Shown: piece by piece, positions 1 to 36,085 of the stretch
How the letters are laid out: each line of letters begins with the position of its first letter
Position numbering within the stretch: position 1 is the first letter of the stretch
DNA from: a virus
Reading direction: 5' to 3' (one strand)
Length of the DNA: 36,086 nucleotides
IMG/VR virus record: IMGVR_UViG_3300048033_000965
Span: 1 to 36,086 of that record
Position numbers and translations under genes: made by a program
The notes under the pieces: model-generated
Databases searched by the model: none
What the model was told of the DNA's origin: nothing
What the model saw: only the letters and a program-made list of their open reading frames with translations

Positions 1-105
1 GTTGCCTGAAGAATCTTTTGAATATAAAGTTTGGTTTGTTAAGTCTACCGCAAGTTCACCCTGAACTAAGTCGCCTGCTGCGGGAGCACCTGATCCATTC
101 TTTGT
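1..105. repeat. Terminal direct repeat, left copy (105 bp)
   Basis: Bases 1-105 are identical to 35963-36067. Beyond base 105 the two copies diverge but still encode nearly the same peptide (ATTIVT versus ATTIIT). The repeat lies entirely inside tail-fibre N-terminal coding sequence. Confidence 0.95.
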
Positions 106-6759: not shown

Positions 6760-7029
6760 TTAGTCATCTATGTCTTCTATCTCTTCTTCCGTTAGTTCCC
6801 TCTCAGGAAGCCCTAGGCCTTCTACGGAGCTATAGAACTCCTTTAGATCCTTGAACTTATAGAGGACCGCTGGTACTGCCCTACGTCCTGTGATCTTCTC
6901 TACAAAGTCCCACCCTTGCTTACCCGGTGGTATCTGAACATAATCATACTCCATGTTTATCGCTGTGAGCTTCTTACGTACTGCCTTGCATCCGTGGCAC
7001 CAGTCGGCACCTATGACAACAAAAGACAT
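6760..7029 (-). CDS. Glutaredoxin/thioredoxin-like protein
   Basis: 89 residues with the redox motif CHGC (residues 12-15, in ADWCHGCKAVRKKL), the cis-proline segment RAVPAVLYK and an acidic C-terminal tail. This matches the small thioredoxin-fold proteins that phages use to reduce ribonucleotide reductase or thiols. Unusually it lies in the late packaging operon just before TerL rather than next to the RNR gene. The late operon also encodes a protein with about 85 cysteines, so a role in virion disulfide formation or reshuffling is possible. AAGGAAAC before the ATG is the likely ribosome site. Confidence 0.8.
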   Translation of the reverse strand: MSFVVIGADWCHGCKAVRKKLTAINMEYDYVQIPPGKQGWDFVEKITGRRAVPAVLYKFKDLKEFYSSVEGLGLPERELTEEEIEDIDD

Positions 7030-21087: not shown

Positions 21088-21110
21088 AAGGGGGCCTTAG
21101 GGTCCCCTTT
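21088..21110 (+). terminator. Terminator between converging early and late units
   Basis: AAGGGGGCC (21088-21096), loop TTAG, GGTCCCCTT (21101-21109): 9-bp stem with one G.U, followed by TTTCTTC. It lies 9 nt after the RNR stop and overlaps the last codons of the opposing late gene. Confidence 0.8.
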
Positions 21111-22764
21111 CTTCATCCCCTACTAGTGCGTTACCTGTTAACATGCCTGCACCTGCGTTTACTCTTCTTTCAGCATTCAAAGCAGCCGCAGAGGGTTTAG
21201 CATCTGCTATTGCTTGTAGACTATCCCTCACAGGCACCTTGTTTTGAGGTTGCACAGGGCTAATCTTCTTAGCTGTACCCTTTAGATCAAAGTGCATTGG
21301 AGGGGTAACAGACAGTGAACGATTAGGCAAACTTTCTGATACTACACGACCTGCTACAGGTATCTTCTCAAGGAAGTTGTGCTCATCTGATACAACACCC
21401 ATTACTTTACCGTTAGGGGTAACCTTAGCTAAATAGTTGACACCACCTTCGGTTACAGCGTTGCCTACGAAGGAGCCAGTGACCCACATACCGTTCTTCT
21501 GTGCCTTCTCAAATGTGTCGCTTTGTGCCGTAAGTTGCCACTTAGGAGTATCACCCTTCTTAAGCTTCTTGTTAATTTCAGCGTTAGCTTTCGACATTGC
21601 GTTAAGTCTATTCCAAAGTTCTTTCTCTGTTAGATTACCATTCTCAAACAAAGGTTTCAAAGAAGATACCACTCCACTTTTATTCTGGAAGTCAAAGTGG
21701 TGTTGTCCAGAAACCATATCCCCAGCACCAGCATTCTTAATGCGTATATGAGAACCTTCAGAGGCACCTAATGGTTTACCGTCAGGACCGTCCCAAATGT
21801 TCCTAACATGGTTGTCTATAATGTTTAGGTCACTATCGGATACATTAGTAGTCTTCCTAGAATCAGTATACTTCCCTTTGAGCTTATTATCTTTAATTAA
21901 AGAAGTATAGGAACCTTTTGTAGCAGGTACAGGTTCCGTAAGATAACTACGGTTCTCTATATCCTTAGTGGCCTGAGCCTTATTTCCTACTCTTCCCGCC
22001 TGATCTGGTATTAATGAGCTAGAGGCCTGTGATTGTGCTACAGCCTTGGCGTCATCCCTAGCTGTTAATTTACTTAAAGCTTCTCTAGCCTTGTCTTGAG
22101 TGGTTTGATTGATTCCTTGTTCTCTGTATAACGCTCTTTGAGAAGGCATGAGAGTTTGGAGCATACCCCTTCCAGCGCTTTCCGTAGCCCATTCACCAAA
22201 GGACAAAGCCTTCTCCATCATATTAGCTACGTCTTGTGGCTTCCCCGCCTGAGCTACGATAGGACCAACCTTAGGTACTCGACTTAACTTGTCTTTCTGG
22301 TCAAATATAAACTCTGTCGCTGGCCCTACTTCGGCCTTGCCTGAGGCTGCATAATGATTAGGTATATAATTAGGAGCAGAACTCAATGTGTTGCCCTTGA
22401 GACTATTGGCTCCTGAGAGTGCTCTAGCGCCTTTAACACCGTTAGTAAACAAACCCCCACCTATTAGGTTAATAGGATCAGCTACAATGTCTAGAAATGT
22501 ATTACCAGCGGCGTAGAGAGGCACTGGCAAACCCTCTGGAGAAAACCATTCGCTCTTGTCGCCACTAATGGATTCCTTTAGATATTCCCTAGGAGCATTC
22601 ATAGCAGTATCTACGGCTCCGCTGACGACTTCCCTAGTTTTATCTACGTTTTCTGCTCTTCTTTGCCTTACGTTTTCTTGCTGCTTCTCTCGCATTACAT
22701 AATAATCAGAGGGTTTTTGCGAAGCACCGTAGTTCCTAAAAAACTTAGTTGCCCAGTTATCCAT
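21097..22764 (-). CDS. Putative internal virion protein
   Basis: 555 residues, last gene of the late unit. The N-terminus is charged and helical (REKQQENVRQRRAENVDKTR). A hydrophobic Gly-rich stretch follows (FLDIVADPINLIGGGLF). The C-terminal half has a KIKNAGAGDMVSGQHHFDF segment and a mixed alpha/beta region. No lysozyme or transglycosylase motif was found. The position after tail genes and next to two other helical proteins suggests an ejected core protein, as T7 gp14-gp16. Its start overlaps the upstream gene by 8 nt. Function is by context. Confidence 0.5.
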   Translation of the reverse strand: MDNWATKFFRNYGASQKPSDYYVMREKQQENVRQRRAENVDKTREVVSGAVDTAMNAPREYLKESISGDKSEWFSPEGLPVPLYAAGNTFLDIVADPINLIGGGLFTNGVKGARALSGANSLKGNTLSSAPNYIPNHYAASGKAEVGPATEFIFDQKDKLSRVPKVGPIVAQAGKPQDVANMMEKALSFGEWATESAGRGMLQTLMPSQRALYREQGINQTTQDKAREALSKLTARDDAKAVAQSQASSSLIPDQAGRVGNKAQATKDIENRSYLTEPVPATKGSYTSLIKDNKLKGKYTDSRKTTNVSDSDLNIIDNHVRNIWDGPDGKPLGASEGSHIRIKNAGAGDMVSGQHHFDFQNKSGVVSSLKPLFENGNLTEKELWNRLNAMSKANAEINKKLKKGDTPKWQLTAQSDTFEKAQKNGMWVTGSFVGNAVTEGGVNYLAKVTPNGKVMGVVSDEHNFLEKIPVAGRVVSESLPNRSLSVTPPMHFDLKGTAKKISPVQPQNKVPVRDSLQAIADAKPSAAALNAERRVNAGAGMLTGNALVGDEERGP

Positions 22765-24487
22765 TAGAGGCTTCCTTCTCTTCTGCCTTCATCTCTTCAT
22801 CAATTTCCTTAAAGGCTGCGTTAAGGTACGTGTAGACTGCCCGGCTGTCAGTGATTAACGCTTGCTTCTTAATAGGATCTGTAGTATCCTTAATCTTCTT
22901 AGCAATCTCTGACAACATATCTCTCTTAATGTAAGCCAGCTTTGCTCTCCCCTTGGCTGGCAGAGGCCTCTTAAGTTGATTCTTAATGATGAAGTAAGGG
23001 GAAAGTACAGCAGTTCCTCCTAATACATAGGCAGCGTTGCTTGCTACAGCTAACGCAGAACCTCCTAGGAACTTCTCAATGCCTAACTCCTGCATAAACC
23101 TACCAACAGTAGAGTTAGCCTCTTTAGCGGCCTTAGTGCCTAAGGATCCTATGGTGGGTATCAGCTTTGACATCTGAGTAAACAAACCTTGTGCCTCTGG
23201 GACTACACCATATATTGTCTCATTGACTGCGTTACGTACAGCCATAGAAGCTAGGTTGCCTGTGTTAAGCTTAGTACCGTCTACGTTGTAACCCATCCTC
23301 TTAAGGCGATCATCAAACATAGCCCTAGCCACCCTGAGACCCTGAAGAGTACCCCCTTGCTCATCCAAGATGGATAGAAACTCTTTGAACAACTTTGCTG
23401 TCTCAGCTTCGGCTGCTTTGTTAGACATTAACTTAGGGTTACTCTCTACCATCTTATCAAACTGCGCCCTAGTGTTAGCCCTAAGGTTAGTATCTATCTG
23501 AGGCCAGTTAATCTTCTTCTCGTTCCTCGCGAGTAACTTCATAAGGTTATCTTCTAAACCTTGGTAGTACGTCTGCAACTTATTGTAGTTCTGCTGTAAT
23601 GTCTGATTACCAGATACTCCAGCTTTCTTAGCTGCGTCTACAAGATCTAGTTGGTCTGCTGTCGCAAGTTGCTCTTGAACCCCTAAGGGGCCTTGCGGGT
23701 CAGTCGTTAGTTCTACTTGCTCTGGAGTCTTCTTATCTTGCTCAAAGAGTATCTTATATATGTCAGCGTCGTCTCCTGCTAAGGGTTTAACCTCATTACG
23801 TAGGCCCACACGTTCCATCTTCATAGGCTTGTAGTCAGGGATAGCCTTAGCTGAGAACTTAGCGAAACCTACGTCTAATACGGCTGTCAGGTTAGCAGCC
23901 TCGTTAGGGTTAGATTCCTTAAATGATTCCCAAGCCTCCACACCCTGCCCAGCAGCATTTAGAGCCAGTTGACCACCTTGAGTTTTCATAAGATCTTGAA
24001 AGGCCTTCAAGGAGTCTTTCCTGAACCCCTCTGGGAGCCACCCTACGCCCTTCTCAGCGCCATAGAGGACCATCTCTGATGCACCATCAAAGATCATAGA
24101 GAGTGGCGTAGTAGCTGTCTGAAGCAGCACAGAGGCAAGGTTAGTATTCTGCCTGTATTGCTCCTGAAGTGCCGCAGGGTCACTTAAGGCTTGCCCAAGC
24201 TGCTCATTGCCGTTACCACCGTAAGTACTAGCCATTCTAGAGAACACTTGAGACTGCTTCTGTATTGCCCTCTCATAAGGCTCTGCAAAGACTCTCTGGA
24301 AGAATGATACATCCTCATTCTCTACATCAGCGTTGTCTGTGGATACCGTAGCTGTTTCCCATGCTCTATCAAAAGCAGAGTTAGGGTCTACGTTTAACTC
24401 CTTCTCCTGCTCAGGGGTCACCAAAGGATCCCCTGTAGCTGGAGTGGCGAAGGCTCTATCAAAGGCGTCCATAGATTCGTTAGACAT
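22757..24487 (-). CDS. Putative internal virion protein
   Basis: 576 residues, largely helical, with a duplicated N-terminal motif (AFDRAFATPATGD and AFDRAWETATVST) and a basic C-terminal helix region (YIKRDMLSEIAKKIKDTTD) ending acidic (DEEMKAEEKEASNG). A hydrophobic stretch at about 475-505 (SALAVASNAAYVLGGTAVLS) could insert in a membrane during DNA ejection. Start overlaps the upstream stop as TAATG. No enzyme motif recognised. Confidence 0.5.
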   Translation of the reverse strand: MSNESMDAFDRAFATPATGDPLVTPEQEKELNVDPNSAFDRAWETATVSTDNADVENEDVSFFQRVFAEPYERAIQKQSQVFSRMASTYGGNGNEQLGQALSDPAALQEQYRQNTNLASVLLQTATTPLSMIFDGASEMVLYGAEKGVGWLPEGFRKDSLKAFQDLMKTQGGQLALNAAGQGVEAWESFKESNPNEAANLTAVLDVGFAKFSAKAIPDYKPMKMERVGLRNEVKPLAGDDADIYKILFEQDKKTPEQVELTTDPQGPLGVQEQLATADQLDLVDAAKKAGVSGNQTLQQNYNKLQTYYQGLEDNLMKLLARNEKKINWPQIDTNLRANTRAQFDKMVESNPKLMSNKAAEAETAKLFKEFLSILDEQGGTLQGLRVARAMFDDRLKRMGYNVDGTKLNTGNLASMAVRNAVNETIYGVVPEAQGLFTQMSKLIPTIGSLGTKAAKEANSTVGRFMQELGIEKFLGGSALAVASNAAYVLGGTAVLSPYFIIKNQLKRPLPAKGRAKLAYIKRDMLSEIAKKIKDTTDPIKKQALITDSRAVYTYLNAAFKEIDEEMKAEEKEASNG

Positions 24488-25842
24488 TAAGAGGCCCTCA
24501 TTTGAACAAACTCACCATTAATGAGTTCATATCTAGATCCTTGAGGACCGTCAGGAGCATAGAATACTTTACCTGTCTCAGGGTCTTGGGCATAGCCTCT
24601 AGCTTTGTACGTAGGGCTGTTCCATTCTACTGTATCCCTAGGAGGAGCACCTGACGCTACCTTCCTGATGTTGATAAGGTGGTTTTTAATGTTGTTTAAG
24701 GCCTTTGCTTGCGCTTCTGCTGACATACCTACTTTCAGCGTATCTACTGTAGACTGTAACGACAGAAATTCTATGTTGGATATTTGACCTAAGCCTGTTC
24801 CAGAGGCTCCATACTTAGCAGCTTCTTCTTTCATAGCGTTAATCTGGTCAAAACCTAAGTTAGCCTTAAGGCTTACTATTTCAGCATCACGGTCATAAGC
24901 ATCTCTTCCATAGACATTGGACAAAACACCACCAACAAGGCCTGTATCCCAACCAGAGGCACTATCAATTAAACCTTGCGCTCGGTTCTCTTGGAAAACT
25001 AACTTATCAATAAGCTGTACTTGGCCTTCTTGGTTCTCAGGCGTGTCCGGCTTGATGGTTTGTATTACGTCCCCTGTGTTTCCATCAAACATTACGACAG
25101 AACCATCGTCCATCTTCTGAGACTTGACGTTTCTACTCTCAGGCTTCTTAGGTTCCGCAAACTCCTTCTTAACTTGTTCTTCTCTAACCTTCTTAATTAC
25201 ATCTTCGTTACCTTCCATTATAGCTTTCTTAATAGCAGGGTTGTTTACTGAGTCTGCCAAGGTTTGACGACCTTGAGTAACCCGCTGACCTTTAGCTTGT
25301 GACTCAGCGTATGAATCCATAGATTTCTGAGGATCCCTGCGTTGGGCGCCGGGAACTACATCAGTCAATCCTCCTTGCTTAGTCTGTAGCTCATCAGCCC
25401 TTTGCTCTAGCTTCTCAGCACGAGCAGTCATAGTAGGATCACCCTGAGCTAACTGACGTATCTTAGCTGCTTGCTGCCTTAGCCTCTGTGGACTCTCATC
25501 ACCCACAGCAGCAGTCTCAGCTTGACCTACCTGAGCCTGAGTAGTCTTAGCTTGTCTATCTACAGCAGCCTTAGCAGCATCAGAGAACACCTTGGCTATG
25601 TCGTTCTTACCCATGGTGGTATAACGAGCAGCCTCAGCGTTCAAAGCAGCAGGGTTATCTTTGTTGGCCGCAAGGAAGTCTTGGACCTCCTTTTGGAGGC
25701 CTTCGTTCTTCTTACGAGCAATTAGGTTGTCCACAGGTTTCATTAAGTCTTGCCCTAAACCCGCGAAAGCACCCCCTAGCATATTGCCTTGTCTTTGACC
25801 AGCCTCTGTTAACATGCCGCCTAAGTTTGGATAATTAGCCAT
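24487..25842 (-). CDS. Putative virion structural protein, helical
   Basis: 451 residues. N-terminus MANYPNLGGMLTEAGQRQGN, Gly-rich, then long Ala/Gln/Glu helices (SDAAKAAVDRQAKTTQAQVG; RLRQQAAKIRQLAQGDPTMT) that look like coiled coil. The last 60 residues are globular (SPTYKARGYAQDPETGKVFY). It belongs to the same set of large helical proteins following the tail genes; a role in the internal core is likely. GGAGAAATAAAC before ATG supports the start. Confidence 0.5.
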   Translation of the reverse strand: MANYPNLGGMLTEAGQRQGNMLGGAFAGLGQDLMKPVDNLIARKKNEGLQKEVQDFLAANKDNPAALNAEAARYTTMGKNDIAKVFSDAAKAAVDRQAKTTQAQVGQAETAAVGDESPQRLRQQAAKIRQLAQGDPTMTARAEKLEQRADELQTKQGGLTDVVPGAQRRDPQKSMDSYAESQAKGQRVTQGRQTLADSVNNPAIKKAIMEGNEDVIKKVREEQVKKEFAEPKKPESRNVKSQKMDDGSVVMFDGNTGDVIQTIKPDTPENQEGQVQLIDKLVFQENRAQGLIDSASGWDTGLVGGVLSNVYGRDAYDRDAEIVSLKANLGFDQINAMKEEAAKYGASGTGLGQISNIEFLSLQSTVDTLKVGMSAEAQAKALNNIKNHLINIRKVASGAPPRDTVEWNSPTYKARGYAQDPETGKVFYAPDGPQGSRYELINGEFVQMRAS

Positions 25843-25857
25843 GTTTATTTCTCCTTA

Positions 25858-26664
25858 TTAGTTAAAGATCCAGTCAAAGATGCTACTACTAGCAGATCCC
25901 AAAGCACCCGTGGCTCCGCTAAATAGGCCTGAGTATAGATCAGCAAGTCCTGTCCTAGATCCCATCTCTGACTGTAGGTTAGCTAACTGAGCCTCTAAGT
26001 TGTACTCGCCCTGCTGCCTACGAGCTACATCAGCCATGCTAGCGTTAGCTGATCCTGCATTCGAGGCAGTCATCAGTTGAGCCAGAGGTGCGTAACCCTG
26101 CTCTTGGAACATACCACCTAGTTCGGCCTGCTGCATCTGCTCTTGCTGCGCTTGAGTCATAGCTCCTAACATTGCTTCATTCTTGGCTCTTTCTCTAGCC
26201 ATTTGAAACTCAAACTGCTCAGGGTTACCCACCCTAGAAGTAGAGAGGCCTCCTCTGCCTTGAGCAAACAAACGCTCCTCCATGGCTAAACGAGCGTCTT
26301 CTTCTCCGGGCATCTGAGCAGCCCTCATCCTATTATAGATGTCTGTCTCTCTACCTGCGGTGTCCTGCATGGCATTACCGTAGAATCCTGTGGCACCCCC
26401 TAAGAGTTGATTCTGTAGCGCCTGTTGGTTAACACCGAGGTTAAACTGGGTGCCTCCGTCCGCATCAGTAGTAATGTTACCTAAGTTTCCTGAGGTTACT
26501 GTGTAAGGCTGAAAACTTATGTTCTGAGGTGCTGTTATCGTAGGAATATTTGAAGAGTACTTATTGTTCTCATCGTAAGACCCATATAAGTTCCGTATCT
26601 GCGAAGGTAACGCACTGTAGAACTCGTCGGCTGTACCTCCTAATATGTCTGCTAAAAAACCCAT
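25858..26664 (-). CDS. Virion-associated protein, possible internal core
   Basis: 268 residues. The opening MGFLADILGGTADEFYSALP and the Met/Gln-rich middle (EAMLGAMTQAQQEQMQQAEL) with a Gly/Ser/Ala-rich end (LFSGATGALGSASSSIFDWI) resemble T7 gp14-like small ejection proteins in composition. A FAQGRGGLSTS segment with Arg-Gly-Gly is notable. It lies between the repeat protein and the large helical proteins. Assignment is by size and context. Confidence 0.5.
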   Translation of the reverse strand: MGFLADILGGTADEFYSALPSQIRNLYGSYDENNKYSSNIPTITAPQNISFQPYTVTSGNLGNITTDADGGTQFNLGVNQQALQNQLLGGATGFYGNAMQDTAGRETDIYNRMRAAQMPGEEDARLAMEERLFAQGRGGLSTSRVGNPEQFEFQMARERAKNEAMLGAMTQAQQEQMQQAELGGMFQEQGYAPLAQLMTASNAGSANASMADVARRQQGEYNLEAQLANLQSEMGSRTGLADLYSGLFSGATGALGSASSSIFDWIFN

Positions 26665-27113
26665 TAGTACGTACCTCCATTAATTGTATCAGCCGTTAGT
26701 AACCCAGTGACCTCTAAGGTGCCACCTAAGGTGGTATTCCCTGTGACACCTAAGGTGCCTCCTACCGTTGTGTCTCCAGTGACACCTAAGGTGCTACTCA
26801 AGGTAGTAGCCCCAGTGACATCTAAGGTGCTACTTAAGTCTACTCCACCTGTGACACCTAAGGTGCTACTCAAGTCTACCCCACCTGTGACATCTAAGGT
26901 GCCACCTAAGGCGGTGTCTCCTGTGACATTCAGGTCATCTAAGGTTACAGTACCCGAGAATATAGGGTTAGCTGAGTTAGCCTTAGAAGCTATGGAGCTT
27001 GCTAGGTCATTAAACTCCGTAGAAAACTCAGCACCTCTGATTGTCTTAGCTGGATCACCAGAAGGTAAAGAATCCTTAGCAGCAAAGTTTGTTGTTGGTG
27101 TATAGTTGCTCAT
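26664..27113 (-). CDS. Repeat protein with VTG/TLGGTL motif, fibre-like
   Basis: 149 residues. The first 55 residues are non-repetitive (MSNYTPTTNFAAKDSLPSGD, then RGAEFSTEFNDLASSIASKA). The rest is about six copies of a 12-residue unit of the type LGVTGNTTLGGT. Such repeats form beta-helical fibres in phage tails, and the tail-fibre gene at the right end has a related LDVTGTTTL unit. The protein is short for a fibre. TAATG coupling links it to the next gene and ATG overlap to the nozzle gene. Confidence 0.6.
   Translation of the reverse strand: MSNYTPTTNFAAKDSLPSGDPAKTIRGAEFSTEFNDLASSIASKANSANPIFSGTVTLDDLNVTGDTALGGTLDVTGGVDLSSTLGVTGGVDLSSTLDVTGATTLSSTLGVTGDTTVGGTLGVTGNTTLGGTLEVTGLLTADTINGGTY
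26707..26950. repeat. 36-bp tandem repeats inside the repeat-protein gene
   Basis: Units beginning GTGAC at 26707, 26743, 26779, 26815, 26851 and 26887 are exactly 36 bp apart, with a partial seventh at 26923. On the plus strand the unit core is GTGACACCTAAGGTGCTACT. The period is a multiple of three, so copy number can change without frameshift. Confidence 0.9.
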
Positions 27114-28699
27114 AATATTTTACCTTTTAGTGCTAACACGTTTATCTCCTGCAAAGACAGAGGGAATCCATTAATGTCTGACTCTAAACCAATAGTTATA
27201 ATTGTACCGTCACCTGTAGTGTTCACAGGTCTTCTAGTGACTACCTCACCACCTGTGTACTCCGCTAGTCCAGCAAGAGGCGCTCCTGTTGGAGACTCAG
27301 GATTAGAAAACTCAGCTAGTCCAGCTATAGGGTTACCTGAGGCATCCACAGGATTTGAGAAGAAGTAAGGAGTCTGGTTACCTACAGTAAAACTAGCAGT
27401 CTTATAGTTAGTGTTGAAATCATACGCCCACTTAATAAACACAGTGGCACTATTCGCGCCTACCAAAGTTGGCCTAAGCTTCTTAAGGATCTTAAGTTGC
27501 GAGGGGTCACCAAAGGTTAGTCCCGGACTGTAGTAACGGAAGCGATAAGAAGCCCCTGCATCAGAGTACCCCTTGTACTCCCCTATGCCTCTTCTAGACC
27601 CTAGGTATATAATACCATCATTGTCTCTACAGAAGGCTGAGAAGGTCATTGAGGGCCACCTAGTAACCCTGTAAGCCCCGTTCTCTAAGGCACCCTTTAG
27701 GTCAAAGCAGTAAACAACGTTTTGTCCGGGGAATCCTATGAGGTAGAAAGAGTTCTCCGGGCTATACACAGAAACCGTAGGGCCTGTTCTAACACTATTA
27801 GTCTCTATGAACTCTGTCTTAATATTTAAACTTAAGTCACCTATCGGCATGGACTTCTCTTGTACAGTCCTCTGGAAACTCTTTAGTCCTGATGAGGCTA
27901 AGAAGATAACATCGGTGCCTGTGTACTGCACAGAGTTACGACAGACGCACCCAACACCTGAGATGGTATCCTGAATAGCCATACTAGCTGGAGACTCAGC
28001 GCCCCCGAAGACTATAATGCTGTGTTCACCAAAGATGATTAAGAATCCATTGTGGGCAGCTAAGGCCCTAATTTGGTCAAAACCATCAGGCCATGCCTTA
28101 GAAATCTCTAGGGAACCTGAGGAGCCTTGAGTAAACGATGTGCCTATGAGGAGGTCAGAGAAGTATATTGTCTGTGAATCCCCTGAGTTATCAACTAACC
28201 AGAGTCTACCGTAGGCCGCTAAGGCTTCATTACAGTAATACCTAAAGTCTGTGGTTTGTCCTGTGTAGTCACCAAAGGTCTGGAGTCCACCAGCGTCAGT
28301 GTAGATAAGAGGCTCTTGTCCCTTCTGTACAAAGTAACAGGCATCATTAAAGTTGACCATCTTCCAGTCATTACCACCCACGGTATAACCTACGGGAGTG
28401 ATGTCAACTAGAGTTTCAGTACCAGAGAATATCTTAAGGTTGCCTACACTGAATACCTCAGAGTTACCTTCGTCATCAAAGAAGTAGTGTACCTGATGTA
28501 TGTAGTCCCCGTCGAGGACCGTAGAATCTAAGGTGATTATGTCGTTACCCTTGCGCGATGCAATACGCCCTCGCTTGTCGATGACAGCATTATCAGCTAT
28601 CTCAGCAAACGAGGGGTCCTGAGCTAACGGAGAATCCTCAGTGTTGATACCCATGAACGCAGGAGCAACTAGGTTTATACTTTGTAAGGGCTGGGCCAT
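27110..28699 (-). CDS. Tail tubular protein B-like (nozzle candidate)
   Basis: 529 residues, beta-rich throughout. The N-terminus (SINLVAPAFMGINTEDSPLA, then NAVIDKRGRIASRKGNDI) is typical of large tail proteins in small marine podoviruses, annotated as tail tubular protein B. Repeated aromatic/Gly blade-like segments suggest a propeller. T7 gp12 is longer (794 residues). It is coded directly after the adaptor candidate, the same order as T7 gp11-gp12. It has an AGGAG site before the ATG. A second related segment ends in repeated AGLAEFSNPES / AGLAEYTGGEV. Confidence 0.65.
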   Translation of the reverse strand: MAQPLQSINLVAPAFMGINTEDSPLAQDPSFAEIADNAVIDKRGRIASRKGNDIITLDSTVLDGDYIHQVHYFFDDEGNSEVFSVGNLKIFSGTETLVDITPVGYTVGGNDWKMVNFNDACYFVQKGQEPLIYTDAGGLQTFGDYTGQTTDFRYYCNEALAAYGRLWLVDNSGDSQTIYFSDLLIGTSFTQGSSGSLEISKAWPDGFDQIRALAAHNGFLIIFGEHSIIVFGGAESPASMAIQDTISGVGCVCRNSVQYTGTDVIFLASSGLKSFQRTVQEKSMPIGDLSLNIKTEFIETNSVRTGPTVSVYSPENSFYLIGFPGQNVVYCFDLKGALENGAYRVTRWPSMTFSAFCRDNDGIIYLGSRRGIGEYKGYSDAGASYRFRYYSPGLTFGDPSQLKILKKLRPTLVGANSATVFIKWAYDFNTNYKTASFTVGNQTPYFFSNPVDASGNPIAGLAEFSNPESPTGAPLAGLAEYTGGEVVTRRPVNTTGDGTIITIGLESDINGFPLSLQEINVLALKGKIL

Positions 28700-28709
28700 A
28701 CGTTAGCTC

Positions 28710-29357
28710 CTAGGGGGTATACCAGTCGGTTGCATAAGGGTGCTTCTGTGCGTCCAGAGAGATAGCGTCAGAGAGATACTGATTAGCTATACCAAAGTAC
28801 TCAGGAGCCGCTGTACCGCCTGTCTCGCCTCGCTCACGGGCTGCTAGGGCTACCGCGAGGTGTAACACAGGCTCCGCAGGGATCTTTAGGGGATCTGAGT
28901 CGTTCACAAGATCCTTGTTTCTTAAGAAGCAATTGAAAGTTAGGTTATACGCCTTGTCTGGAATAGGGTATAAGTCTACTTGAGAGTCTCCATTGGCGTC
29001 AAGGCCATTATAGGTGTAGAACTGCGGCGTCCCAGTAACGGGAGTTTCATTGAGAAACTGTTGGTGAAACCACTGAGAAGGACGATAAGTGATAAAGAAA
29101 CCAGAAGTGTCGTTAGTAATATCCATTGTCTTAATGTCATCTTGACTACCCAGAAGCGCATAGTTATACTGAGCATCCTGAGTTGTGACAGAGATGGTAG
29201 TCTTGAGTCCAGACCAGTCCCAAGACTTCTCAACGATCTTCTTAGCGTCATTAACAAAGTCACCTATCATCTTACTGTAAGTTTCTTGGGATACAGAGGA
29301 TACCTCTTCTTCCCGTAGTCGGCGTAGAACACCGTTTACCAATTGTAAATATGTCAT
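28710..29357 (-). CDS. Tail adaptor (tail tubular protein A-like)
   Basis: 215 residues from ATG 29357: MTYLQLVNGVLRRLREEEVS, then FVNDAKKIVEKSWDWSGLKT and a beta segment, with a C-terminal helix around LAVALAARERGETGG. This matches the T7 gp11/P22 gp4-type adaptors that join portal to tail. ATG 29357 is preferred over a GTG at 29384, because it starts 1 nt after the stop of the giant upstream gene and matches the family N-terminus. Confidence 0.8.
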   Translation of the reverse strand: MTYLQLVNGVLRRLREEEVSSVSQETYSKMIGDFVNDAKKIVEKSWDWSGLKTTISVTTQDAQYNYALLGSQDDIKTMDITNDTSGFFITYRPSQWFHQQFLNETPVTGTPQFYTYNGLDANGDSQVDLYPIPDKAYNLTFNCFLRNKDLVNDSDPLKIPAEPVLHLAVALAARERGETGGTAAPEYFGIANQYLSDAISLDAQKHPYATDWYTP

Positions 29358-29358
29358 A

Positions 29359-32300
29359 TTATCGGTTACCTGTAAATAAGCCACTTAAGTAGTCGGTTAT
29401 AGGGAACTGCATTCTATCTAGAAGCTCAGGGTCACCAGAGATTCCAAACTCAAAGGGATCCCTCTCTCCTTGGCCTCCTGAGCCACCACCACCGCCACCT
29501 TCAGGAGGAGGAGGGGGAGTACCTATGCACTCTTCAGGGTTAGCTGCGGCGTACTCAGCACACGTACAGTCAACGCAGTCAGGTCCTGAGGTACACTCTA
29601 TTGGGTTCTCTGCTGCGTACACAGGGTCATCACAAGGGTTATCTACACCACACCCTAGGTCAGCATCAGGTAAACCACCGTCAGCACACTCAGAACACAG
29701 TGGGTAGTCTATAGCACCGTTTTCACACTCAGGTTCTACAACAGGGCCAAAGACACAAGGGCCTTCCTCATTAAAGTTGGTAGCTGTGTCATCTAAGCAA
29801 GTAGTTACAGTTGTTTCACCACAGGCTGCGTCACTAATCCCTATGTTGGCATTATCAGGACAAGGCTGCTCACATCCAGCACCTTTACCAAAGTCTGCCT
29901 CTCCGTTCTCACACCCATCTGGGCCTCCAATTTCTGGACAACCGCCGGGAGAATCCTTAAGTGTTACTCCATCAGGGCAGTAGTCTTCTGGGCAGTTTCC
30001 ACGAGCATCTCTAGGAGCACCATCGACACACTCATTAGGATCTACAGTAGTAGGCTCACCACAGGCTTCCGGAGAGGACACAGACTGACCGGCTTTTGGT
30101 GTGTTATCTGCACAAACGTGGCAACCTTCAGAGCTTACAGCCTCTAACCCATCGTCACACACGCCTGTGTAGCCACATTCTTGATCTTGTGGTACATAAA
30201 CCCCACTACCACAGTTTTTGTAACCACAGTCTCTAAAGTTGTCTCTTGTTATCTCCCCAGAGCAATCCAGACACTTACCATCAACGAGGCTAGTAGTTTG
30301 TCCGTTGTCCTCGCAAGTCTCAGGTACACACCCTTCTGCACCTTCTTTGTAATCTGCTAAACAGGGACCACAGGTGTAAGCATCTACCTGCTTTCTGTTA
30401 GCATCAGCACAGTTTACCGCAGGAGGCTCTTCGTCGCACTCTGCTTCTGTGAATGCTAGAGTGTTATCCCAACACGGAAACTGAGGGGGTAAACAAAGGG
30501 TTTCTCCGCCTTCTCCCGGTTGAAGTCTATAACCGTCTTTACATCCTTCAGCACAGCTACCGTCTTCATTTGTGTTTCTGTTAGGATCTGTACACTCTAT
30601 TACAGAAGCTATACATTCTACACCGTCTTTGACATAAGGAGATTCACTGCCTTCTGGACATTTATCGTAACCACACTCGTCGTAATTACTGTCATCAATG
30701 GTTGCACAAGGGTTCTCGCCTTGTACATACGTAGTCGTAGTTGCAACACACTGAGTACCATCGTCTTCATAAGTTGTCGTGGGGTCTGGTAGAGGATCAC
30801 CAAAGGGTATTGTCTCAGTTAAGCTAACTTGAGATGTAGCAGTCTCCGCGTTACATTCTACTACTTCAGGAGGAGCGACACACTCATTGCCTTCAAGGTT
30901 GAAGTCAGGAAGACACCCTCCGCACTCATAAGGCGTATCTTGTACCTTATTCTGAGCTGCACAGTCTACCTCAAGAGGCTCTTCAGAGCACTTGGATAAA
31001 TCATTGACTATCTGACCATCCCAACATTCAAGCTGAGGCTCCTCAGGACACTCTGCTTCCGTAGCTGCTGTACTATCGTCCCAGCACTTCACAGGGGCTA
31101 CACACTCACCGTTGGCTCCTATAGGATTCCACGTAGAGTTTTTACACCCGCCACATTCACTAGGCTTCTGTGCTGAAGGATCACCAGATACATGTGTTTT
31201 ACCTAAGGCTTCACAGTCTTGTACAGTAGGGCCGGGATTTACCCAGTCAGGAACACAGCCGCCTTCGGAGTCGTAAGTTCCTGCCTTACCGTCTTCAGTA
31301 GTACAGGGGTCTCCGGGGACGAAATCGGGTGGTGGATCTTCACACTCCCTAGTTTCTTCGTTCCTAACTTGATTGCCCGGACAAGGTGGCTCAAAACCTT
31401 CCTCTTCGCACTTTCCATTTATGAGTTCATAACCATCCGCGCAACCACCACAGGAACTATCTCTGCCTGTGCCTGTGCTAGGCCTGTATACTTTGTTTTG
31501 CTCATTGCATTCTTCTTCTGTAGGACCACCATCAGTCCACTCTGTACAAGTACCGTCTTCGTCTATGTGTGTAGGTAAGCAATCACCACAGGAGCTATCG
31601 GTCTCTGTAGCGGCATCTCCGGGTACGTGTAGACGCCCTTCGGCTGCGCACTCTTCCTCGGTCTCTCCTTCGTCAGTCCAAGGTGGCTTACATTCCTCAG
31701 TACCAGCAGCATATCGGTCGTCGTACTCACAAACATCTACACAACCTTGACCAAAATCCTTCTGTGTTGTATCTAAACACTCACCACAAGTTCCATCGCT
31801 CTTGAGAGCCTTGTTTTGTCCAGCGCAGTCATTAGGGTCAGGGTCTACACATGTACCATTAGGCCCCGTGGGAGTAAAGTTGGGGTCTTCACAGGTTCCA
31901 CACTCGCTTGCCGAGACTACAAAGCCACCTGTTTTACCAAACTGGGCGCTACAGTCTACTAAGGCTCCTTCGTTTAGGGCGTCCTCACAAAAGTCTTTGT
32001 TGGCCTCTTTAAACGTAGGGTCTAAACAATCACCCGCATATAGGAAAGGGTCTATAGCGCTCGTGGCATCCTTAACTTGACCTAAGATATACCCACCTAA
32101 GATATTACCTATCCAGTCGTTAAGTATACCAGAGAGGCCCCCAATGGTCTTAGGGTCTACGCCAGCCTGTAGATCACCCCAGACCTCTTGTACCTTCTCT
32201 ACAGCCTTATCTATGACGTTCTCTAGCCAACCTGAGGGGTCTTCTAGGAAGTCCTCAAAGCTCTCACCTATGTCTTCACCCTTCTGAATAATATCGTATA

Positions 32301-33144
32301 CAGAAGTACTTATATCTACCATTCCCGGAGGCAGTGGTAGGTCTAATCCCGGTATTCCAAATATTCCTACGTCAACACACTTAGTCCAACTAGGGACTCC
32401 TCGGCCACCTTCCGTGGTTGTATTACCTGTCCAGCTTTCGCACTCCTCTATAGCAGAACCTAATACAGTAGAGCTTAAGACACCTTTAATTAAATCTGAA
32501 GCGCTTTCTAGATCAGTAGGTATAGACCCTTTGATCGTTTCTATCATGTCCACAACACCGTCAACAACATCTCTGTCAACTTGTTGTTCTTCAGCTATCT
32601 CACTTAAAAGATCATCTAATGTTTGCGGAGGCTCAGGACCCGGATCTATAGGATCTACAGGGCCTACAGTCTGCTCTTCTAACCACTCGTCAAACTGTTC
32701 GTCTGACCACATACCGTCTTTAGTAGTGGGCTCACCAGAGGCTTTCCACTTGTCGTAGAAACGCTGCATAGCTGCATCACGACAGCCATTCTCTTCGCAG
32801 TACGCAATGTTGTACTCTCTGTTCTTATGCCACCTGTACTGAAACTCTGTATCAGGGTTAGAGTTAATTATACCTGCGTAGAGTCCGTTAGGGTCGCCAC
32901 CGTTGGCTTCTATTATTCGATCTAGAGTAGGACCATCTATAATACCGCTAGCAAACAGGTAGTTTACAATGTATCCGGGACGAAGATCAACGCTTGTTAG
33001 GTTACCCTCGCCACCATAGTAGGGGCCGTTAATGTCTGCGTAGAGCCTACCTAGGAATCTGGCCCAGTCATCAGTAGTAGCAAAGTCGTCTTGACTTACC
33101 ACATCTCCGGGAAAGGGGTTACCAGTAGTACCGTATGCAGTCAT
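29359..33144 (-). CDS. Giant cysteine-rich modular virion protein
   Basis: 1261 residues. The first 160 or so are globular (WARFLGRLYADINGPYYGG and EYNIAYCEENGCRDAAM), followed by an acidic Pro linker and helices to about 370. Residues 370-1205 are Cys-rich: about 79 of the roughly 86 cysteines (counted by eye). The commonest module has four cysteines, with the pattern C..QNK, (E/S)CGGC and G.C, in about seven copies. A second module, CWD(D/G/N) with a second Cys after nine residues, occurs three times. The C-terminus has a poly-Pro/poly-Gly hinge and FEFGISGDPELLDRMQFPIT. No signal peptide. It lies between secreted proteins and the tail adaptor; likely a tail or receptor-binding structure. 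No family recognised. Confidence 0.75.
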   Translation of the reverse strand: MTAYGTTGNPFPGDVVSQDDFATTDDWARFLGRLYADINGPYYGGEGNLTSVDLRPGYIVNYLFASGIIDGPTLDRIIEANGGDPNGLYAGIINSNPDTEFQYRWHKNREYNIAYCEENGCRDAAMQRFYDKWKASGEPTTKDGMWSDEQFDEWLEEQTVGPVDPIDPGPEPPQTLDDLLSEIAEEQQVDRDVVDGVVDMIETIKGSIPTDLESASDLIKGVLSSTVLGSAIEECESWTGNTTTEGGRGVPSWTKCVDVGIFGIPGLDLPLPPGMVDISTSVYDIIQKGEDIGESFEDFLEDPSGWLENVIDKAVEKVQEVWGDLQAGVDPKTIGGLSGILNDWIGNILGGYILGQVKDATSAIDPFLYAGDCLDPTFKEANKDFCEDALNEGALVDCSAQFGKTGGFVVSASECGTCEDPNFTPTGPNGTCVDPDPNDCAGQNKALKSDGTCGECLDTTQKDFGQGCVDVCEYDDRYAAGTEECKPPWTDEGETEEECAAEGRLHVPGDAATETDSSCGDCLPTHIDEDGTCTEWTDGGPTEEECNEQNKVYRPSTGTGRDSSCGGCADGYELINGKCEEEGFEPPCPGNQVRNEETRECEDPPPDFVPGDPCTTEDGKAGTYDSEGGCVPDWVNPGPTVQDCEALGKTHVSGDPSAQKPSECGGCKNSTWNPIGANGECVAPVKCWDDSTAATEAECPEEPQLECWDGQIVNDLSKCSEEPLEVDCAAQNKVQDTPYECGGCLPDFNLEGNECVAPPEVVECNAETATSQVSLTETIPFGDPLPDPTTTYEDDGTQCVATTTTYVQGENPCATIDDSNYDECGYDKCPEGSESPYVKDGVECIASVIECTDPNRNTNEDGSCAEGCKDGYRLQPGEGGETLCLPPQFPCWDNTLAFTEAECDEEPPAVNCADANRKQVDAYTCGPCLADYKEGAEGCVPETCEDNGQTTSLVDGKCLDCSGEITRDNFRDCGYKNCGSGVYVPQDQECGYTGVCDDGLEAVSSEGCHVCADNTPKAGQSVSSPEACGEPTTVDPNECVDGAPRDARGNCPEDYCPDGVTLKDSPGGCPEIGGPDGCENGEADFGKGAGCEQPCPDNANIGISDAACGETTVTTCLDDTATNFNEEGPCVFGPVVEPECENGAIDYPLCSECADGGLPDADLGCGVDNPCDDPVYAAENPIECTSGPDCVDCTCAEYAAANPEECIGTPPPPPEGGGGGGSGGQGERDPFEFGISGDPELLDRMQFPITDYLSGLFTGNR

Positions 33145-33198: not shown

Positions 33199-33525
33199 CT
33201 AACAGCCACTACCGCCAAAGGTGAACCCATCACAGGCTTCTTCTTCTGTCTCCTCTGTCACTACCTCTTCTACTACACAAGAACCACTGCTTCCACCAAA
33301 GGTTAAGCCTGACTGTGGACACACCTCAGTAATCTCCACCAAAGGTGTCAAAGGTCGAATGTCAAAGCCACCCTCGTTGAACCGTGTGAACGTCCATACA
33401 GTCCCATCGTCCACGTACACCTTGGAGCCTACGGGCAACTCTATGACTCTACCGTCATCTAAGTAAATCTCAGCAGCCGTAGCAGAGAAGGTGAGTAGGG
33501 CGAGTAGTAGAACAAATACATTCAT
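33199..33525 (-). CDS. Secreted protein with C-terminal Cys repeats
   Basis: 108 residues. A signal peptide is clear (MNVFVLLLALLTFSATAA, cleavage near 18), then EIYLDDGRVIELPVGSKVYV, a strand-rich domain found in exported proteins of marine podoviruses. The C-terminus repeats GLTFGGSSGSC and GFTFGGSGC around a very acidic linker. The ATG overlaps the stop of the lipoprotein gene (ATGA), suggesting that both act at the envelope, for lysis or exclusion. Neither is a clear spanin. Confidence 0.7.
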   Translation of the reverse strand: MNVFVLLLALLTFSATAAEIYLDDGRVIELPVGSKVYVDDGTVWTFTRFNEGGFDIRPLTPLVEITEVCPQSGLTFGGSSGSCVVEEVVTEETEEEACDGFTFGGSGC

Positions 33526-33662
33526 TTCTTGATTTCCTTTGTGTGAGTTTCAGTTTCAACTTCAGTGTGAGCACAGAAGCCCAAGCACACCGTAGATTTC
33601 TCTCGTAGTGTGCCTGAGCATCCACAGAGTAACACGAGTGCTAGGGCTACTAAGGTCTTCAT
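33522..33662 (-). CDS. Small lipoprotein (46 aa)
   Basis: 46 residues: MKTLVALALVLLCGCSGTLR, then EKSTVCLGFCAHTEVETETH and a basic end. The hydrophobic n/h region followed by LCGC is a signal peptidase II lipobox with Cys15 as the lipidated residue, leaving a 32-residue mature part. Size is close to o-spanin (Rz1-type) lipoproteins, but the mature part is not proline-rich. Start overlaps the upstream stop as TAATG; stop overlaps the next start as ATGA. Confidence 0.7.
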   Translation of the reverse strand: MKTLVALALVLLCGCSGTLREKSTVCLGFCAHTEVETETHTKEIKK

Positions 33663-34045
33663 TAGACCTCCATAGTAGCTGTTTCAGGAGCAGCCCAAGG
33701 CAACCCAGTACCCCGAGTAGGGTTAACCTTCTCAGCAACCTGAGCGTTCACAGCAGCTTCTATGGTGTCCTTCTCAGACTTAGGGACATTGCCTTCCTCG
33801 TCTACATCCATAGTTACTGCACCCATGTCTGCTAAGAGCCAGTCGATAGCCTGCTGCTCTGTAATGGATTCCCAGTCAACAGCAGCTCTAGTGTCATCAG
33901 TGGACACAGCCTGCGTACCATAGGAGCCACCAGTGTTACCGTCAGCGTCAACACCGTTACAGCGCCAGTGCAGCGTAGTTGCAACCTTCTTACCGTTGAC
34001 TATGTTGTAATCAATAGCACCAATTGTCCATGTAATCGTTGTCAT
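33662..34045 (-). CDS. DUF7936-like fibre-associated protein
   Basis: 127 residues with the arrangement of a family seen after tail-fibre genes of marine phages: TITWTIGAIDYNIVNGKKVA, TLHWRCNGVDADGNTGGSYG, then a helix (SITEQQAIDWLLADMG) and GLPWAAPE at the end. Possible fibre tip or assembly partner; no activity known. It lies 3 nt after the fibre stop. Confidence 0.65.
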   Translation of the reverse strand: MTTITWTIGAIDYNIVNGKKVATTLHWRCNGVDADGNTGGSYGTQAVSTDDTRAAVDWESITEQQAIDWLLADMGAVTMDVDEEGNVPKSEKDTIEAAVNAQVAEKVNPTRGTGLPWAAPETATMEV

Positions 34046-34048
34046 TCT

Positions 34049-36085
34049 TTAGTCCTCTAATGGTGTTGGCATGTTGTCAATTTGATCTTGGAACTGATCT
34101 ATGATGTCATCTACAGCAGTCTTAAGCTTCTCCCTGAGTTCTTCTACAGTAGAGTCAGGATCAGCCGTAGCAGCCCTTAGCTTCATAAAGGCTCGGATGA
34201 TCTGTAGAGAGTCAACTACAGGTGCACCGTCTTGGATTATCTCATCAGCCTTGAGTGGCCCTGAGTACGTAGCGCCACCTAGGAAGAATCCCTCTCCTCT
34301 GGCGTTAATAGAGGCGACTAAACTTCCGGCACCGTTATACCACCTATGTACGTCTGTGGAAGTAGCTGCGTCAGCATACTGATACACAATGCCTGTATTG
34401 TAAGCTTGCCAACCGTGGTCTGTGGCTGCTGCACTCACAGAGGTTCTACCAACCAGAAAGTTACCCGAGGAGTCGACACGCATGGCCTCGGAACCACTAG
34501 CGCCAAAGCTCAAGAAGTCACCCGTTGCCGCCCAAACACGGAGACTATCGGAGCGTCCTTGAACATAGCCCTGTGAAGTCGTCCCATCACTGGCGTAGAA
34601 CCCTATCGTTGCGTTGCCATCTGAACCACGGCCTTTAATCAGGACAGCCTGAGCACCACTATCTGCTTGTATCGTAAGAGGAGCAGTAGGAGCATCCGTA
34701 CCAATGCCAACGTTTTGGGTTTCTCTATCAATGGTGAGAGCATCATAGTAGCCCCCAGCGTATTGAACCCCGAGGGCGACTCCTGTGTTGGCACCTAACC
34801 CCGTATCGGTGAATCCAAAGTATCCTGCTGCCGCTGTAGGCGAAGAAGGATGGCTAATACGCACAAGCCTTTCGTCGTCGCCTGAAGCCTTCACATCGAT
34901 TTTATCTACTGGTGCAGACGTACCGATTCCCACGTTTCCTGAGGAGTCGATACGCATGCGCTCAGTGTTGTCTGTTCCGAATGCCGTATAGCTGTTTTCT
35001 TTATTCCACAACTGAACAGCACCAGAAGTGTACTGGCTGATATGAAAACCATCTCCTGTAGTCGTACCTGACGTTGCGTTAGTTAGCTGAAGGTGGGTAG
35101 TATCTGCTGTAGTCCCGCCTATTGTTAGGTTTCTGGCAGGAGCAGTTGAGTCAATGCCCACGTTTCCTGAGGAGTCGATACGCATGGCTTCTGAAGTTGC
35201 ATTGCTGATAGTTAAGTCACCGCCGCTGGTACCAATAGACCCTACAGTTAGGCCATCCTTGCGGAAGGTAGAGACAACACCGTCTGAGCCTTTCCTGTTT
35301 AGAAACTGTACGCCAGAGGATTCAGCGCTACAAGCAAAGAGCTCACCTGCATTGGACAGGGACAAACCCGGTGTGCTTGTGGTGTTAATGTTATTGTAGA
35401 TGCTGCCTGTGTGACCAACTAGTACGTTTCTGTCTTGGTCAATGCTGAGAGAGGGTGTGCCTTGCTTAGAAATGTTAAACGTTGCGGCGTTTCGCACATC
35501 CAGAGTAGCAGTGCTTGAACTACCACTAAAGTCAAGGTTAATCAGTTGGCTTCCAGCACCTCTGAATCGTGCGCTAGTGTCGCTACCCTTCACTTCAAGC
35601 ATGGCGGCGGGGGCATCTGTGCCAATACCAACATTCTCACTAGCATCAATCGTGATAGCCGTGGACGTAGCGTTGTCGTCGATGCCGGGGGAAGTAAAGC
35701 TACCCGTAACGTCAAGATCTACTACGTCTACGTCTGCTAGGGTGGTTGTACCTGTGACATCTAAGGTTGTTACATCGGCGTCAGGAAGGGTAGCTGTACC
35801 AGTAACATCAATGTTGCCACTAAAGTCTACATCTGTATCGGTAACAGTAATCTGAGTTGACGTAGCATTATCGTCGATGCCGGGGGACGTAAAGCTGTCT
35901 GTGGCAACCAAATCAGTAAAGGTACCGGGAGAACCACCACCGGTGTCACCTACTTTGAAGACGTTGCCTGAAGAATCTTTTGAATATAAAGTTTGGTTTG
36001 TTAAGTCTACCGCAAGTTCACCCTGAACTAAGTCGCCTGCTGCGGGAGCACCTGATCCATTCTTTGTGATAATCGTTGTCGCTGA
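34049..36085 (-). CDS. Tail fibre / receptor-binding protein (5' end at window edge)
   Basis: At least 678 codons; the frame is open to the right edge, where it reads SATTIITKNGSGAP. The N-terminal 40 residues match the partial gene at 1-123. The next segment has paired SFTSPGIDDNATST copies and LDVTGTTTL units. The body repeats MRIDSSGNVGIGT(S/D)AP at least five times, a beta-helix fibre pattern. The C-terminal 60 residues are helical (TVEELREKLKTAVDDIIDQF). I saw no clear intramolecular chaperone triad. An internal ATG at 35911 is not the true start. It should bind the host receptor. Confidence 0.85.
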   Translation of the reverse strand, partial: SATTIITKNGSGAPAAGDLVQGELAVDLTNQTLYSKDSSGNVFKVGDTGGGSPGTFTDLVATDSFTSPGIDDNATSTQITVTDTDVDFSGNIDVTGTATLPDADVTTLDVTGTTTLADVDVVDLDVTGSFTSPGIDDNATSTAITIDASENVGIGTDAPAAMLEVKGSDTSARFRGAGSQLINLDFSGSSSTATLDVRNAATFNISKQGTPSLSIDQDRNVLVGHTGSIYNNINTTSTPGLSLSNAGELFACSAESSGVQFLNRKGSDGVVSTFRKDGLTVGSIGTSGGDLTISNATSEAMRIDSSGNVGIDSTAPARNLTIGGTTADTTHLQLTNATSGTTTGDGFHISQYTSGAVQLWNKENSYTAFGTDNTERMRIDSSGNVGIGTSAPVDKIDVKASGDDERLVRISHPSSPTAAAGYFGFTDTGLGANTGVALGVQYAGGYYDALTIDRETQNVGIGTDAPTAPLTIQADSGAQAVLIKGRGSDGNATIGFYASDGTTSQGYVQGRSDSLRVWAATGDFLSFGASGSEAMRVDSSGNFLVGRTSVSAAATDHGWQAYNTGIVYQYADAATSTDVHRWYNGAGSLVASINARGEGFFLGGATYSGPLKADEIIQDGAPVVDSLQIIRAFMKLRAATADPDSTVEELREKLKTAVDDIIDQFQDQIDNMPTPLED
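35963..36067. repeat. Terminal direct repeat, right copy (105 bp)
   Basis: Identical to 1-105. The following 18 bases differ from the left copy at nine positions, yet after the first codon still encode ATTI(I/V). Confidence 0.95.

Follow-up and report, generated by a model that had tools for sequence, protein, structure and literature searches.

An undescribed family of cysteine-rich modular proteins encoded beside the SU10-type adaptor gene in uncultured phages

The window analyzed in this study is a stretch of viral DNA of 36,086 nucleotides (IMG/VR record IMGVR_UViG_3300048033_000965, positions 1 to 36,086). Its gene at 29359..33144 on the minus strand encodes a protein of 1261 amino acids with 86 cysteines, which belongs to a genuine and previously undescribed family of modular proteins. 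The gene occupies a hypervariable slot, that is, the position immediately 5' of the gene for an SU10-type adaptor and abutting its start, where the ends are kept and the central material and length are swapped between related viruses. We consider it fairly probable (roughly 0.6) that the slot protein is an elongated appendage of the virion, with disulfides forming inside its modules after release.

The gene is a single intact open reading frame running from 33144 to 29359 with an ATG start. A recount agrees with the preliminary description of this DNA in the reading frame, the length of the product, the number of cysteines (86 exactly, or 6.8%, against about 86), and the seven four-Cys and three CWD modules; the minus strand, which that description did not give, is added here. 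The four-Cys modules, C-x(n)-C[GEP]xC-x(n)-C, are found at residues 398, 440, 499, 546, 644, 728, and 912, and the CWD units at residues 687, 707, and 891. There are eleven CxxC pairs, and 82 of the 86 cysteines are located past residue 370. No DNA-level tandem repeats were found in the window copy of the gene, and the modules are diverged protein repeats. Across the 14 further structural proteins of the window that were counted, cysteine makes up 18 of 5370 residues (0.34%), and a content of 86 in 1261 is thus not a chance outcome (binomial log10 P about -79). The protein is acidic, with 255 Asp/Glu versus 64 Lys/Arg, and has five histidines. It contains neither a signal peptide-like nor a membrane segment (maximum 19-residue hydropathy 1.03), in agreement with the earlier claim about the signal peptide.

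The order of genes on the minus strand is tail fiber, DUF7936 protein, small signal-peptide-like protein, Cys-rich gene, adaptor, nozzle-like protein, and further structural genes. The location in a tail module proposed earlier is thus seen in the position among structural genes, with the fiber on one side and the adaptor and nozzle on the other. The separate tail-fiber gene (34049..36085, minus strand; phrog_18345, E = 3e-19) has an N-terminus crossing the contig end. Next come the DUF7936 protein, a conserved flank of the slot (33662..34045, minus strand; PF25590, E = 1.6e-19), and a 108-aa protein with a signal-peptide-like N-terminus, four cysteines, two TFGG motifs, and a weak DUF6719 match (33199..33525, minus strand). 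TFGG motifs are also seen in many of the low-Cys slot proteins encoded at other loci (such as L017-L045; here and below, L-numbers denote loci, L002-L009 being close relatives from IMG/VR and L010-L012 distant ones with EPEPEP linkers) and are absent from the window slot protein. In some relatives, the place of the TFGG protein is taken by a small holin-like membrane gene directly before the slot gene (L003, 1689-2087, PF11351; L010, 8538-8882; L011, 1616-1963; and L035). On the other side, the conserved ATG of the adaptor gene (28710..29357, minus strand; Pfam PF24175, E = 8.9e-15) begins at 29357, one base past the stop of the Cys-rich gene, as read at the junction with the ends aligned; a candidate 26-bp overlap of the two genes was therefore rejected. 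The nozzle-like tail protein (27110..28699, minus strand) provides further context, and beyond it lie candidate ejection-type proteins, assigned by position only (21097-26664).

The window also encodes ribonucleotide reductase, TerL, portal, and coat, and the nearest cultured relatives of its T7-like replication genes are those of pelagiphages and roseophages. A glutaredoxin-like gene (PF00462, WCHGC; 6760-7029, minus strand) is found among the late genes just upstream of the terminase gene and may perhaps serve the ribonucleotide reductase. The same 105 bases stand at both ends of the contig, at the fiber N-terminus (window positions 1-105 and 35963-36067, the last 19 bases being different), so that the record probably represents an almost entire genome of about 36 kb that is circularly permuted.

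The slot was surveyed with the adaptor as the start: about 90 further loci were fetched, from at least 566 adaptor relatives among the matches listed, and the gene just upstream was read. The 70 full-length slot genes, the window included, are distributed bimodally into 35 encoding low-Cys proteins (0-4 cysteines) and 35 encoding Cys-rich proteins (18-100); one fragment with nine cysteines (L092) is counted among the low-Cys slot proteins. Low-Cys occupants contain collagen repeats (Pfam Collagen, PF01391) in L016, L030, and L031, acidic AEQAEKD repeats in L024, L026, and L027, and EEVEEQ repeats in L018-L025, and those of the collagen type match phage tail-fiber families (PHROGs 6320, 5073, and 1806). 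The slot protein of L028 contains a DUF4214 domain (residues 482-528). Hydrophobic segments rich in Ala and Gly (hydropathy up to 1.8) are present in the low-Cys proteins of L030, L036, L044, and other loci, and could be a membrane-active region in some occupants. The small flanking genes are nearly identical upstream of both kinds of occupants, the 108-aa TFGG protein included.

Judged from their sequences, several low-Cys and Cys-rich occupants are homologous by parts, sharing the N-terminal domain, the W-motif, the mid-domain, or the C-terminal anchor. The N-terminal domain of the window protein (residues 1-97; 32854..33144, minus strand) is one of several exchangeable types, and the same type is found in the acidic-repeat protein of L026 (E = 2.7e-5 in round 1; no hits to shuffled decoys). 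The W-motif region (residues 95-160, YDKWxxSGEPTTKDGM; 32665..32862, minus strand), modeled by AF2 with pLDDT of about 70-79, is common to the collagen-type L030 (E = 1.4e-16 in round 1) and the acidic-type L026, L027, and L101. The mid-domain with IPGLDLPLPPG (residues 165-400; 31945..32652, minus strand) is predicted by AF2 to be helical at low confidence, and also occurs in low-Cys slot proteins, with L087 found in the first round of the search and 13 low-Cys proteins in the second. It runs into the Cys-module array (residues 371-1200; 29545..32034, minus strand), where the seven four-Cys modules and three two-Cys CWD units are accompanied by other two-Cys units and by one CLDDTATNFNEEGPC unit (residues ~1116-1130), which may resemble the CxDxxAxNYxxxAxxDDGSC repeats found in proteins that marine bacteria secrete. 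The array is followed by a Pro/Gly-rich hinge, IGTPPPPPEGGGGGGSGGQGERD (residues ~1207-1229; 29458..29526, minus strand), and by the C-terminal anchor of 33 residues, GISGDPELLDRMQFPITDYLSGLFTG (29362..29460, minus strand). The FPITDY anchor, which the window protein carries, is present in 34 Cys-rich slot proteins and in the Cys-free L087, with no hits to decoys. An anchor search gave 87 matches with the Gly tract included and 35 without it, and only the latter figure is used. In round 1, 12 Cys-rich proteins and 16 of the low-Cys kind were found to have another class of anchor, GISY..DYMAELD, again with no hits to shuffled decoys. The preliminary description recognized a modular Cys-rich protein in the structural module, but missed the shared N-terminal, mid, and C-terminal parts, the low-Cys slot mates, and the many relatives with 18-100 cysteines.

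Those relatives lie on contigs of this virus group in IMG/VR. No significant match for the window protein was found in Pfam, NCBIfam, PHROGs, or the PDB sequences, and none in bacterial and archaeal genome contigs. Likewise, tblastn searches with the whole protein, both its halves, and the distant relative L011 found no homologue among 50,697 phage records, and thus no cultured member of the Cys-rich family among them; the earlier impression of no recognizable family is borne out. Profile searches with the modules gave no significant match to a characterized family: there was no Pfam match to TNFR/EGF families for the window protein or the module set, the best PDB profile being EDAR (E = 4.1), and zinc-binding profiles yielded a single BCL-11A-like CCHC row (E = 0.47) in one of 13 members. 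For a GxY collagen run, the window protein had no Pfam Collagen match and none to the collagen-like tail-fiber families. Finally, no description of a Cys-rich modular phage tail protein was found in the open literature (subscription papers lay outside the scope).

Structure prediction also points to small modules. For residues 395-640, AF2 produced small beta-hairpins with a mean pLDDT of 80, many blocks above 90, and a pTM of 0.40, a value to be expected if well-formed modules are oriented freely relative to each other, like beads on a string. Residues 1-420 (pLDDT 50) were left out of the fold search. Foldseek found no significant match for this flexible multi-module model (best E 0.11, query TM 0.14-0.18 in the top rows), and the top, non-significant rows were mostly of the TNFR/EGF type (RANK, TNFR1, Pfs25, and NELL2 EGF). 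The TNFR/EGF likeness is one of design; it is no argument for common descent, and we claim no homology.

We suggest the following scheme. The Cys-rich gene would encode an appendage of a podovirus-like virion, attached near the adaptor, in which the C-terminal anchor leads through the hinge into an extended rod comprising some 40 small disulfide-bonded loops, followed towards the N-terminus by the helical mid-domain and the exchangeable N-terminal domain. Lacking a signal peptide, the chain would be synthesized in the reduced state in the cytoplasm of the host and be flexible during assembly. After lysis, in oxygenated water, the cysteines of each module would pair with one another, and what was a floppy acidic chain would become a stalk resistant to proteases and shear; in related phages the equivalent stalk would be made from collagen triplets, acidic or other repeats. 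The distal N-terminal domain may touch the host; the label of receptor-binding given to the protein earlier went beyond the evidence.

Alternatively, the slot protein could be carried in the particle, leave with the genome, and oxidize in the next host's periplasm, an oxidizing compartment, the helical mid-domain acting on the envelope. The low-confidence helical prediction for this domain agrees with such a role, and so do the hydrophobic Ala/Gly-rich segments of several slot members, which to that extent count against an appendage. Still, the window protein itself has no membrane segment, candidate ejection-type proteins are already encoded beyond the nozzle gene, collagen and EPEP or coiled repeats are materials of rods, and a chain with dozens of loops would not pass easily through a narrow tail channel. 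We therefore regard ejection as unlikely.

The probable state of the cysteines is indicated by their number and conservation. In all 35 full-length Cys-rich slot proteins, the cysteine count (from 18 to 100) is even. After removal of sequences sharing half or more of their 5-mers, the number is even in 27 of 27 (against 9-17 of 27 for other residues), with p = 7e-9 if the proteins were independent, an optimistic value because the pattern was noticed before testing and the sequences are related. Random in-frame deletions of 20-60 amino acids from the window protein keep the parity in only 55% of cases. Among the flanking genes, the cysteine number is even in 15 of 19 nozzle proteins and odd in 27 of 31 adaptors; this skew presumably reflects shared ancestry, and these genes thus show that parity is not trivially even without being independent controls. 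An excess of even cysteine numbers is an established sign of disulfide use (PMC3177088). Cysteine is also the most conserved residue, with an identity of 0.89 in distant relatives versus 0.37 for other residues. Compared with L002, 71 of 81 aligned cysteines are kept, 19 of these with a changed codon (dN/dS about 0.42 for this pair). Finally, L003 and L004 share 4.2 kb without a mismatch and differ by one Pro codon and by a block of 120 bp corresponding to two CWD units, the loss of which removes four cysteines, so that the parity stays even. Cysteine counts in gap blocks of pairwise alignments are noisy and were kept out of the evidence. Taken together, the even and conserved cysteines would fit a disulfide-bonded extracellular protein.

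Cysteine modules could instead hold zinc or iron-sulfur sites and remain reduced in the cytoplasm. The eleven CxxC pairs and seven four-Cys modules would suit metal sites, and a four-Cys unit likewise keeps the parity even. However, the number of two-Cys CWD units varies between the otherwise identical L003 and L004 genes, the Cys region has only four histidines and two-Cys units without histidine make poor metal sites, the zinc-family matches are limited to the one row mentioned, and the top Foldseek rows, though not significant, are extracellular disulfide domains. The preliminary description preferred oxidation on release to metal binding, and in this it was right: oxidation is favored because the parity is strictly even, two-Cys units come and go, and histidine is nearly absent. 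Metal binding is less likely than disulfides, and we rate it as quite improbable. It is similarly doubtful that the protein is a non-virion factor set free by lysis (as a matrix, a decoy, or a factor at the host surface) and placed in the structural operon only for timing: the missing signal peptide and the 3TM holin-like gene just upstream in L003-L006 and L035 (PF11351 in L003), by which lysis genes adjoin the slot gene, would agree with this, but the constant end sequences, the tight abutment with the adaptor gene, and the tail-fiber matches of the collagen-type occupants would not.

Two further observations weigh against an extended appendage. The separate fiber gene means that the Cys-rich protein is not needed as the only fiber. 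The cultured marine phages HMO-2011 and CRP-738 have no slot gene, their coat gene being an immediate or near-immediate neighbor of the adaptor or its equivalent, and thus the slot gene appears to have been added in the uncultured group.

More tentatively, the slot may be a "choice of material" cassette, widespread in an uncultured podovirus group, in which constant ends enclose a disulfide, collagen, or acidic stalk, the disulfide type being redox-triggered, flexible in the cell and hardening at lysis. Strings of disulfide modules are usually associated with extracellular proteins of animals; the extended appendage, if real, would be the clearest known case of a tailed-phage appendage strung from dozens of such modules, and strict cysteine parity would be a computed sign of phage particles relying on oxidation after lysis. 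One slot with constant ends, interchangeable rod materials, and changes of unit number between otherwise identical genes makes a tractable evolutionary system, and the many related contigs with adaptor relatives make the question testable at scale.

Among known systems, SU10 has an adaptor of the same Pfam family that carries long tail fibers (PMC9509320). The window gene adjoins a PF24175 adaptor, near which a long appendage would be expected to dock, as in SU10-like phages (Kuravirus). No sequence similarity to their fibers was found, a rod of Cys modules would replace the conventional fiber, and the SU10 fiber docks by its N-terminus whereas the constant end here looks C-terminal, which counts against an appendage. 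Some low-Cys slot mates are members of the collagen-like phage tail-fiber families (PF01391 and the PHROGs above), unlike the window protein, which has no collagen repeats or family match. Agrobacterium phage Milano has a dense disulfide network despite the reducing cytoplasm, and its particle withstands heat and sonication as long as it is not reduced (PMC10491603). Many disulfides may likewise harden a virion made in a reducing cytoplasm here; in Milano the bonds are inter-chain and extend across neck, collar, capsid, and tail, whereas the window cysteines are in one protein and are predicted to pair within modules. Finally, like TNFR/EGF-type modules, the window protein is predicted to consist of small Cys-paired beta loops strung together.
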